DNA from: Leisingera thetidis
GTDB lineage: Bacteria; Pseudomonadota; Alphaproteobacteria; Rhodobacterales; Rhodobacteraceae
Assembly: GCF_025857195.1 (NCBI RefSeq)
Contig: NZ_CP109787.1
Location: 3,909,001-3,973,000, forward strand
Reading direction: 5' to 3'
Length of the DNA: 64,000 bases
Shown one piece after another: positions 62,100 to 63,413 of this stretch; the stretch's first letter is position 1, and each line of letters starts with the position of its first letter. The notes under the pieces are model-generated. The model was given only the letters and a program-made list of their open reading frames with translations, made no database searches and was not told where the DNA came from. The position numbers and the translations under genes are program-made.

Positions 62100-62735
62100 A
62101 TGACCCGCACGCATATTCCCGGCATCCTTGCCATGGCCGCCGTGGTGCTGGCCTCCAACGTCCTGGTGCAATTCCTGTTCGGCCAGTGGCTGACATGGGG
62201 CGCCTTCACCTACCCGGCCGCCTTTCTGGTCACCGATGTGATGAACCGGGTCTACGGCGCCGCCGCTGCGCGCAAGGTGGTGCTGGCCGGGTTCATCACC
62301 GGGGTGATCTGCTCGCTGATCGGCACCCGGATCATGCTGCAGGGCGACGGCTTCACCTATCCGGCCGTCACCCTGCGGATTGCGCTTGGCTCCGGCCTGG
62401 CCTTCCTGACGGCACAGATGCTGGATATCGCGGTCTTTGCCGCCCTGCGCGAGGGAAAATGGTGGCGTGCGCCGCTGGCCTCCACCCTGATCGGCTCTTC
62501 GGCGGACACTGCCATCTTCTTTACCGTGGCCTTTTCCGTCTCCCTGCGCGGGCTGGAGCCGGCCAACGACGTCTCCTGGGCGGGAGACATGCTGCCGCTG
62601 ATCGGACAGGGGCCGGTTGTGCCGTATTGGGTTTCCCTGGCATTTGCCGATTGGCTGGTGAAACTGACGCTTGCCCTGGCCGCACTTGTGCCTTTCCGCA
62701 TCATCGTGCGTAAACTGACCAAAAAGACCACATGA
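62100..62735 (+). CDS. yhhQ: YhhQ/VUT-family queuosine precursor transporter
   Basis: A 211-residue inner-membrane protein with about six helices. The segment TWGAFTYPAAFLVTDVMNRVYG, cited as TYPAAFLVTDVMNRVYG, and the later SSADTAIFFTVAF are the marks of the VUT/ECF-like family to which the preQ0/preQ1 importer YhhQ belongs. No preQ1 riboswitch is apparent upstream. It is followed by the arfB leader, whose -35 begins eight bases after the stop codon. Confidence 0.88.
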   Translation: MTRTHIPGILAMAAVVLASNVLVQFLFGQWLTWGAFTYPAAFLVTDVMNRVYGAAAARKVVLAGFITGVICSLIGTRIMLQGDGFTYPAVTLRIALGSGLAFLTAQMLDIAVFAALREGKWWRAPLASTLIGSSADTAIFFTVAFSVSLRGLEPANDVSWAGDMLPLIGQGPVVPYWVSLAFADWLVKLTLALAALVPFRIIVRKLTKKTT

Positions 62736-62742
62736 TTTTGTT

Positions 62743-62771
62743 TTGACATTAACCGAATCTGTGGCAGGCTG
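62743..62771 (+). promoter_or_regulatory. Predicted promoter of the arfB leader
   Basis: TTGACA at 62743-62748 is a perfect -35. At a 17-base spacing the -10 would be AGGCTG (62766-62771), which is weak. The predicted start is near 62778. Confidence 0.5.
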
Positions 62772-62792
62772 GGGGCACACGAAACATCAGAA

Positions 62793-62920
62793 AGGAGGTG
62801 CCCATTGTCTAGAGAAGCTATGGAGAGCAGTGCCGGAACAGTTCAGAAGGAGTGCGGCCGAGGCAGCCCTTGGTACGTATAGACCCCTGAATTGGTGCTG
62901 ACCTAACCGGTGCACCTCCT
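62793..62920 (+). ncRNA. Structured leader RNA upstream of arfB
   Basis: The element is closed by helix P1, AGGAGGTGC (62793-62801) with GCACCTCCT (62912-62920), nine perfect pairs extended by two more past a bulge. Inside, helix P2 pairs CAGTTCAG (62839-62846) with CTGAATTG (62887-62894), and CAGTGCC (62828-62834) can extend it with GGTGCTG. A small hairpin CCGAGG-CAGC-CCTTGG caps it. P1 hides the Shine-Dalgarno of the internal ORF. It does not match SRP RNA, tmRNA or any riboswitch I know. The transcript would continue into the terminator at 62930. Confidence 0.6.
62805..62882 (+). CDS. Putative 25-codon leader ORF
   Basis: A TTG at 62805 opens a 25-residue frame ending at TAG 62880-62882. 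It is preceded by AAAGGAGGTG (62791-62800), nine bases of which match the full 16S anti-SD complement, at good spacing. That is far better than the sites of most genes in this window. The peptide runs LSREAMESSAG at the start and GRGSPWYV at the end. The C-terminal Ser-Pro-Trp-Tyr-Val before the stop is a candidate slow or stalling context. There is no membrane segment. Function inferred only from context. Confidence 0.55.
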   Translation: MSREAMESSAGTVQKECGRGSPWYV

Positions 62921-62941
62921 ATCATCTCGAAGGGCTGTTCC
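62835..62941 (+). promoter_or_regulatory. Alternative antiterminator pairing
   Basis: GGAACAGTTC (62835-62844) can pair with GGGCTGTTCC (62932-62941): ten pairs, two of them G-U. This is exclusive with both P2 (shares 62839-62844) and the terminator (uses its 5' arm). The same GGAACAG string forms the terminator's 3' arm. Confidence 0.5.
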
Positions 62942-62968
62942 CCGCGTGTGGAACAGCCCTTTCGATTT
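62930..62968 (+). terminator. Terminator just upstream of arfB
   Basis: AAGGGCTGTTCC (62930-62941), an eight-base loop and GGAACAGCCCTT (62950-62961) form 12 perfect pairs, followed by the imperfect U-tract TCGATTT. It ends 25 bases before the arfB ATG. Confidence 0.75.
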
Positions 62969-62993
62969 CGTAAAGCGCGTTTCATAAAGAGCC

Positions 62994-63413
62994 ATGATCC
63001 GCATCAACGAGCAAATCACCCTGCAGGACTGGGAAATCACCGAGAGCTTCATCCGCGCCTCGGGCCCCGGCGGGCAGAATGTGAACAAGGTGGCGACCGC
63101 GGTCGAGCTGCGGTTCGAGGCGGCGCGCTCGCCGGCGCTGGCGCCCGCAGTCAAGAACCGGCTGAAACGGCTGGCGGGCCGCCGCTGGACCAAGGAGGGC
63201 GCGATCCTGCTGCAATGCGACGAGACCCGGTCGCAGCAAAGGAACCGCGAGATCGTGCGCGAGCGGCTGGCGGACCTGGTGCGCAAGGCGCTGGTGGCGC
63301 CCAAGCGGCGCATCGCCACCAAACCCACCCGCGGGTCCATCAAGCGGCGGCTGGAGGCCAAGAAGCAGCGCGGCGGCCTGAAAGCGACGCGCGGTAAAAT
63401 CGACCCGGATTGA
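62994..63413 (+). CDS. arfB: Alternative ribosome-rescue factor ArfB (peptidyl-tRNA hydrolase)
   Basis: A 139-residue release-factor-like protein. The catalytic GGQ is in SGPGGQNVNKVAT (26-28). It lacks the codon-recognition domains of RF1/RF2 and ends in a lysine/arginine-rich tail (about 95-139) that enters the empty mRNA channel of stalled ribosomes. It frees ribosomes stuck on mRNAs without a stop codon. The Shine-Dalgarno (AAAGAG) is modest. Only about 25 bases separate it from the terminator, which leaves little room for a private promoter, so expression may need readthrough. Confidence 0.93.
   Translation: MIRINEQITLQDWEITESFIRASGPGGQNVNKVATAVELRFEAARSPALAPAVKNRLKRLAGRRWTKEGAILLQCDETRSQQRNREIVRERLADLVRKALVAPKRRIATKPTRGSIKRRLEAKKQRGGLKATRGKIDPD

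Follow-up and report, generated by a model that had tools for sequence, protein, structure and literature searches.

Intrinsic transcription attenuators of the Trp and antibiotic types combine a short open reading frame (ORF), alternative helices, and a terminator. A first-pass annotation of the window, by which we mean the whole 64,000-nucleotide stretch of Leisingera thetidis DNA analyzed here, proposed that a stretch just upstream of arfB is an attenuator of arfB, with a short leader ORF and a terminator. In contrast to the Trp- and antibiotic-type attenuators, no conserved helix that we tested in this RNA overlaps its terminator, and no conserved stalling codons were seen. The nearest mechanism that we found in print is the DUF1127 leader of S. 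meliloti (PMC12218461). As described in the accessible parts of that paper, it resembles the window RNA in having a short ORF (uORF), a competition between ribosome and RNA fold, and a later ORF part that is unimportant, and its uORF is proposed to monitor ribosome availability; unlike our reading of the window RNA, it attenuates the downstream gene, probably through Rho, and lacks an intrinsic terminator. Also similar is rnTrpL/peTrpL of S. meliloti, a dual-function sRNA derived from an attenuator and carrying a 14-codon ORF; it differs in being leaderless, in lying upstream of trpE, and in having a functional peptide, according to the available portions of PMC10117765 and PMC7298713.

The described RNA with which the locus aligns is CC2171 (RF01867) of Caulobacter, which the Rfam description line labels sRNA, without a function in that line. 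In the accessible text of two further papers, CC2171 is predicted in Mesorhizobium (PMC5596092) and listed among improved Rfam structures (PMC11701678). For Caulobacter, the available sections of Schrader et al. (2014; PMC4117421) report from ribosome profiling that intergenic ncRNA regions are untranslated, and that two previously predicted ncRNAs are translated. The available sections of sRNA papers on Bradyrhizobium, Paracoccus, and Bartonella contain no RNA that can be equated with the window RNA.

The locus and its relatives

The features of the locus are collected in Table 1. The TTGACA element (62743–62748), Shine–Dalgarno sequence, 25-codon ORF, helices P1 and P2, and terminator that the first-pass annotation listed are all present where it placed them. 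Its ORF now receives a start codon, TTG, its spacing of about 25 bases between terminator and arfB is in fact 32, and two hairpins that it lacked are added, P0 at the start codon and P3 at a stop codon. The names that it gave to the two neighboring genes are reasonable by their model scores (180 against a cut-off of 100 for arfB, 97 against 51 for the yhhQ-like gene); against the closer model NF008406, the yhhQ-like gene does not reach the cut-off. The predicted fold of 62779–62993 has an energy of −83 kcal/mol, compared to a shuffle mean of −63 (z −4.34), and none of 200 dinucleotide shuffles folds as well.

Table 1. Features of the small RNA locus and its neighbors (window coordinates)
Feature	Position	Strand	Details
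yhhQ-like queuosine precursor transporter gene (Vut_1), upstream neighbor outside the RNA	62100..62735	+	TIGR00697 97.4 bits, cut-off 50.95
Putative RNA promoter: TTGACA, 16 nt, CAGGCT (CANNNT in relatives)	62743..62770	+	From comparison of relatives
Small RNA	62777..62965	+	5' end placed from putative promoter; 3' end past terminator hairpin; RF01867 match 62782-62959
Shine–Dalgarno GAAAGGAGGTG	62790..62800	+	Mostly GAAAGGAGGTGRTCC in relatives; motif in 255/394 family genomes
P1, 5' arm (Shine–Dalgarno)	62793..62801	+	Pairs with 62912-62920
P0, start-codon hairpin (62802-62805 x 62820-62823, 62807-62808 x 62817-62818)	62802..62823	+	Below shuffled energy in 128/128
Short ORF, 25 codons, TTG start	62805..62882	+	Relatives stop at codon 19 (here CGA, 62859-62861)
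P2 (62828-62835 x 62893-62900; 62841-62846 x 62887-62892)	62828..62900	+	Own pairing better than swapped in 113/128
Antiterminator, 5' arm (pairs with 62932-62941)	62835..62844	+	Present, not conserved; 64/128, rank 0.528
P3, hairpin at ancestral stop codon (62857-62863 x 62868-62874)	62857..62874	+	Own pairing better than swapped in 119/128; below shuffles in 121/128
Promoter-like CTGACC-16 nt-TATCAT within RNA gene, candidate arfB promoter	62898..62925	+	Score 9/12; 1 found, 0.2 expected
P1, 3' arm GCACCTCCT, complement of the Shine–Dalgarno in the same RNA	62912..62920	+	Pairing form in 105/128
Terminator hairpin, 12 bp	62930-62941 x 62950-62961	+	Tail TTTCGATTTCG; partner swapping 128/128
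arfB, downstream neighbor	62994..63413	+	NF006718 180.2 bits, cut-off 100

A covariance search aligns the window RNA end to end with RF01867 (model positions 1–159) at a significant E-value of 8.9e-5; the score of 30.7 bits lies below the gathering score of 75, the curated threshold for membership, and no Rfam match within the window reaches any gathering score. The same model matched at the same place in 14 of the 16 relatives scanned, two of which (L024 and L183) are apparently one and the same locus, at 28.7–45.7 bits and always below 75; these comprise 7/7 loci of a first set (28.7–45.7 bits) and 7/9 of a second (30.5–43.2 bits). The likeness extends to a common 5' block (consensus CAACAAUCGAAAGGAGGUGAUCCAGUGUC) and to an ORF region, a closing region, and a terminator that follow in the same order. 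The differences are the pairing of the Shine–Dalgarno sequence in P1 in the window and an ORF of 25 codons (18 in relatives). We regard the window RNA as a CC2171 RNA of a divergent branch, which by the Rfam threshold falls short of membership.

Across the class, RF01867 has matches in 84 of 385 genomes, 13 of them above the cut-off, and among 14 control genomes it matched only Caulobacter. By DNA search the stretch was present in 26 of 61 genomes, of which 21 belong to its own genus; a plasmid search gave no match. The 5' motif GAAAGGAGGTGN{1,3}CANTGTC occurs in 255 of 394 family genomes, with a backwards control of 0, and a looser motif in 78 of 135 Alphaproteobacteria as compared to 3 of 263 other genomes of the phylum, the backwards control of the looser motif matching 4 of 398. 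Two matches per genome were seen in only two of the 78 matching Alphaproteobacteria, G048 and G972; in G048 both copies (C1:805112 and C1:2922049) are RNA-like. A Gemmatimonadota bacterium MAG (L171) carries the motif with a different, 21-codon ORF; it may be an alphaproteobacterial contig that was mis-binned, or the RNA may have a relative outside the class.

Most relatives were found by a pattern that fixes the Shine–Dalgarno sequence, the TG of the start codon, and a TC, and loci were assigned to the window's type by S at codon 2, L, M, or V at codon 6, and E at codon 7, without use of length. Because loci were selected in this way, conservation at the fixed positions (residues 2, 6, and 7, Shine–Dalgarno, and start) is not independent evidence; the results on ORF length and stop are independent of the search pattern. 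The set of 130 window-type loci outside the window's genus leaves out loci with less than 230 nt downstream or less than 20 nt upstream, identical 220-nt stretches, and L061–L090. The 83 nonredundant loci of other types are those of 90 with a clear terminator, and leave out three loci with long frames (L206, L240, and L255).

Promoter and terminator

Among the 130 relatives, 87 have a perfect TTGACA within 75 nt upstream of the start codon, and in 114 the best match to this hexamer is positioned at −63 to −66. The last position of the −10 element is T at a rounded frequency of 1.0 in the 99 relatives anchored on TTGAC, a profile that excludes the 31 of 130 loci without that sequence. In the window itself (62743–62770), the −35 element is near consensus but the −10 element has the CANNNT form, which is conserved in the window's type.

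The arms of the terminator paired better with each other than with arms swapped from other species in every sequence compared. A stricter consensus scan of 62690–63010 returned no terminator-like site, which we attribute to the weak T-tract. To judge by this comparison, the RNA has a promoter and a terminator of its own, as would be expected of a translated or dual-function sRNA.

The short ORF

The Shine–Dalgarno sequence is complementary to the 3' tail of 16S rRNA. The ORF behind it has exactly 18 codons in 121 of the 130 window-type loci outside the window's genus and deviates in the other 9. Codon 19 in those 121 is TGA in 52, TAG in 44, TAA in 25, and TGG, the fourth T-purine-purine codon, in none. 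In the window's own genus codon 19 is CGA in 21/21, and the frame continues to codon 25; the leader stop at 62880 is thus special to this genus, while the stop of the relatives corresponds to position 62859. The peptide shows a different picture in the 121 loci: divergence over codons 3–13 is 0.206, 0.225, and 0.249 at the first, second, and third codon positions, and codons 14–18 vary strongly at all three. Peptide-level selection as the main driver was rejected, as third positions do not change clearly more than the others. Among single-base codon differences over codons 3–13, the synonymous fraction is slightly larger in the ORF frame (0.353) than in the other two (0.294 and 0.217), which may reflect a weak peptide constraint. 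The comparison indicates that the stop at codon 19 is kept by selection, and the peptide little or not; the ORF thus shows, through its stop codon, the selection expected of a translated or dual-function sRNA. Since the stop appears selected and the peptide largely not, ribosome passage rather than the product seems to matter.

In the other-type loci the ORF starts with GTG (60/83) or ATG (23/83) and has 14–33 codons, with 20–26 in 68/83; five of these loci come from the window's family. Read in either of the other two frames, the length ranges from 1 to 86 codons, 86 being the end of the stretch read. Among 30 loci found with the Rfam model, the start codon lies 7 nt past GGAGG in at least 25, and in the remaining five the script had picked an earlier GGAGG.

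Two groups of loci depart in the form of the ORF. The Bradyrhizobium-type loci (e.g. L182, L189, and L223) have a 14-codon form, VS..KRCHLAGIAR, in which codons 9–11 (CTCGCTGG) form an exact complement to CCAGCGAG, which precedes the terminator; an Rfam scan of L182, L189, and L215 returned only tRNA at the gathering score. In Azospirillum sp. B21 (L206), the same 5' block precedes a 59-aa frame with a signal-peptide-like start (MSHGASPVVAALFGLAALLTAGIANAEC...), and L240 and L255 have this block with a much longer or different frame that begins like that of L206. These three look as if the short ORF had become, or had been replaced by, a small exported protein.

Secondary structure

Alignment of 128 sequences with MAFFT and folding with RNAalifold recovered little besides P0, P1, and the terminator. 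The poor yield reflects the variable length of the middle region, and we therefore used partner swapping, in which the pairing of two arms from the same RNA is compared to that of arms exchanged between species. The 128 sequences are the window, as the only row from its genus, and 127 homologs; they derive from 151 window-type loci, of which 150 had a terminator call, reduced to 133 by cutting the own genus to four, to 131 with stems of 8 or more, and to 128 after removal of redundancy. Partner swapping preserves the make-up of columns but not relatedness; relatedness alone need not create a signal, since the antiterminator discussed below showed nothing in the same test.

Besides the terminator, P2 and P3 are supported by this test (Table 1). 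P0 folds below its shuffles throughout but shows no gain over swapped partners (74/128). P1, the pairing of the Shine–Dalgarno sequence with the region before the terminator, shows no swap signal either (76/128), its 5' arm being fixed through the choice of loci. In 105 of the 128 sequences the 3' arm of P1 can pair with GGAGGUG (CATCTCC in 61, CACCTCC in 25, CGCCTCC in 17, and CGTCTCC in 2); in the other 23 it falls outside this pattern. When the growing RNA is modeled, the Shine–Dalgarno sequence has a mean unpaired probability of 0.29–0.53 up to 62915, which falls to 0.00 by 62925. The Shine–Dalgarno sequence against the middle region of the window's type gave no signal (57/128).

A helix between the first ORF codons and the bases before the terminator, considered as a mark of CC2171 RNAs, gives a mixed picture. 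In 74 of 83 other-type loci, codons 1–12 covary with the 20 nt that precede the terminator, and they do not covary with the terminator arm (42/83); in the window's type, codons 1–6 against the pre-terminator region reach only 49/128, without a swap signal, and the partner of this region is instead the Shine–Dalgarno sequence. Comparison across the loci indicates a common plan in which the beginning of the ORF is closed by bases that adjoin the terminator but lie outside it.

Neighboring genes

Searches with tblastn of the DNA downstream of the 130 window-type loci placed the start of arfB within 500 nt in 101 and at a greater distance in 7; in 19 loci with 880 nt or more of downstream DNA no arfB was detected, and 3 were too short to judge. 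The ORF has 18 codons in 92/101 of the loci with adjacent arfB, in 7/7 with arfB farther off, in 19/19 where it was not found, and in 3/3 of the short ones. Whole-genome searches of ten genomes that lack arfB near the RNA located the gene elsewhere in nine, at distances from ∼1.7 kb to another contig or megabases, and detected none in one. Conversely, eight of ten genomes negative for the search pattern have arfB, and six of those eight carry the RNA upstream of it, with ORFs that read 18, 12, 18, 18, 18, and 23 codons. The other two lack it; in one of these (G024, locus L282), reading by eye found the end of a yhhQ-like gene and then arfB, without the RNA in between, a natural absence that could serve as a control.

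Counting the window's own genus, 127 loci have arfB, and in 62 of them the estimated gap between terminator and arfB is below 45 nt. Because this leaves little room behind the terminator, arfB may depend on read-through, the terminator having a weak T-tract, or on a promoter inside the RNA gene, for which Table 1 gives a candidate.

For the 78 other-type loci outside the window's family, the next gene was callable in 35, with 22 on the same strand and 13 on the opposite strand, facing the RNA; by these heuristic gene calls, the next genes belong to many unrelated groups and none of the 35 is arfB-like. Two of them encode a DUF188 (YaiI/YqxD) protein and a YCII-domain protein. A single other-type locus, L186 from the Hyphomonadaceae, has an arfB-like gene nearby, upstream of the RNA on the opposite strand.

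Proposed attenuation of arfB

The first-pass annotation had proposed that a ribosome at the leader stop opens P2 and frees 62835–62844 to form an antiterminator with 62932–62941, and had named lack of conservation of the alternative pairings as evidence against itself. The 10-bp complementarity exists in the window, but it is not conserved as a pairing: the native arms do no better than arms swapped between species (64/128). This lack of covariation, together with the nascent-RNA model for the homologs below, led us to reject the antiterminator as a conserved switch. A second candidate, CAGCCCUU of P3 with the 5' arm of the terminator, is a perfect match in the window and was likewise rejected for want of covariation (65/128).

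The proposed effect of the ribosome does appear in a model of the nascent RNA. With the transcript ending at 62943–62955 and 62866–62894 blocked, the probability of the antiterminator is 0.89–0.95, as compared to ∼1e-4 or less unblocked. In the window's genus, a block at the codon-26 stop gives values above 0.5 in 14 of 19 members, about 0.49 in two, and below 0.25 in three, while a block at codon 19 gives 0.025 or less in all 19; the 19 scored members (of 21) are near-identical and not independent. The prediction fails to extend to the complete RNA, to the homologs, and to some footprints. In the complete RNA with 62866–62894 blocked, the terminator has a probability of 0.915 and the antiterminator 4e-9, and forcing the antiterminator costs 21 kcal/mol. 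In the window, the paired share of the terminator arm (with codons 9–15) is 0.70–0.76 if the block ends at least 14 nt past the first base of the stop and 0.18–0.26 if it ends 11–13 nt past it, so that shortening the block by one base lowers the share from 0.70 to 0.26. Among the homologs, none of 127 exceeds 0.5 with a ribosome at its own stop (codon 19) for eight footprints, and 0 to 3 of 127 do so with a ribosome at codon 26.

An attenuator of arfB would be expected to have that gene directly downstream wherever it occurs; 26 of the 130 loci are without adjacent arfB, and in 26/26 of these the ORF retains 18 codons, while relatives of the RNA are widespread with other neighbors. Two elements of the proposal stand: the leader ORF is real, to judge by its selected stop, and the fold is such that ribosome and structure would compete. 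The control of arfB that it was built around is not supported. On the folding models, attenuation is physically possible for the window's genus, in which the stop has moved, but is not what the RNA was kept for. No described arfB attenuator was found in the accessible portions of the literature on arfB leaders and attenuation or on arfB sRNAs in Alphaproteobacteria.

Possible function of the RNA

We consider it probable that the stretch encodes an autonomous structured small RNA, a relative of CC2171 with its own promoter and terminator, in which it is mainly the transit of a ribosome, not the peptide, that is selected. The comparison of relatives supports the promoter, the terminator, P2, P3, the ORF stop, and persistence without arfB. 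The RNA would be transcribed and its short ORF translated from the very strong Shine–Dalgarno sequence. Without a ribosome, it would close, with the Shine–Dalgarno sequence in P1, the start codon in P0, and the end of the ORF and the ancestral stop in P2 and P3. A ribosome that loads early would translate the ORF and keep P1, P2, and P3 open, exposing a 3' part that includes CCTAAC and CACCTCC. As a ribosome on the ORF would open the helices, translation would decide the form of the RNA, and the choice between early loading and none would be set by ribosome availability during synthesis. The output would be in trans or on the stability of the RNA itself; once exposed, CCTAAC and CACCTCC might pair with messengers, and CACCTCC might do so at Shine–Dalgarno sites. 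The gene arfB would receive only read-through or transcription from an internal promoter. Three observations sit less well with an autonomous RNA: arfB is adjacent in 101/130 loci, with a gap below 45 nt in 62/127, which suits a role in cis; L206, L240, and L255 have the same 5' block with much longer or different frames; and ribosome profiling in Caulobacter, in the available sections of PMC4117421, found intergenic ncRNA regions untranslated, two predicted ncRNAs excepted. More tentatively, the RNA could belong to a widespread alphaproteobacterial riboregulator with an obligatory ORF of ∼14–26 codons and no particular peptide, a trans-acting, free-standing gauge of ribosome availability.

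Other readings explain parts of the evidence. Attenuation, by which a ribosome at the leader stop would open P2 and let the antiterminator form before the 3' arm of the terminator, turning arfB on, draws on the nascent-RNA values (0.89–0.95), on the 14/19 genus members above 0.5 and two near 0.49 as against at most 0.025 for a block at codon 19, and on the start of arfB 32 nt past the terminator. We nonetheless think it unlikely, even in a form restricted to the genus whose stop has shifted from codon 19 to codon 26: the terminator wins once the full hairpin has emerged (0.915; 21 kcal/mol), the nascent effect hinges on the footprint, the homologs do not follow (0/127 at codon 19, 0 to 3 at codon 26), native arms pair no better than swapped ones, the RNA is retained where arfB is not adjacent, and nothing in the peptide suggests a stall. 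A different role in cis, with each lineage's downstream gene controlled through Rho or RNA stability without an antiterminator, in the manner of the S. meliloti DUF1127 leader, strikes us as quite improbable. Such a ribosome-monitoring leader is described in the class, and the next gene is co-directional in 22/35 other-type loci; but the next genes fall in many unrelated groups and 13/35 are on the opposite strand (heuristic gene calls), and the RNA has an intrinsic-terminator hairpin that is reportedly absent from the DUF1127 leader, according to the accessible parts of PMC12218461.

We give equally little weight to the possibility that the RNA is a small mRNA for a micropeptide that acts in the cell. 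Frame and stop are kept across types, the ORF frame has its slight synonymous excess, and the 59-aa frame of L206, with its signal-peptide-like start, is matched at its beginning by L240 and L255; yet third-position change shows no clear excess, there is little in common among 18-codon peptides such as VSRVILERGVGTVRGAVA, MSNWDLELEVRLTSGAKI, and MSKAILEIEVRKIGGNGI, and other types carry unrelated peptides. Least probable of all, in our estimate, is a 30S decoy, whose long complement to the 16S tail would bind free 30S subunits until the ORF releases them. The long form GAAAGGAGGTGRTCC is the commonest among the matches listed, but the window has only 11 matching bases, its Shine–Dalgarno sequence is paired in P1 in the full window RNA (unpaired 0.00), and a decoy would have no need of a fixed stop codon.

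The comparison suggests that CC2171 is one of a widespread group of RNAs under selection for being translated, with hardly any selection on the peptide. If true, this would link sRNA function to the availability of ribosomes across a large class of bacteria. The comparison also carries a warning for annotation, in that a terminated leader with a short ORF should not automatically be read as an attenuator of the next gene.
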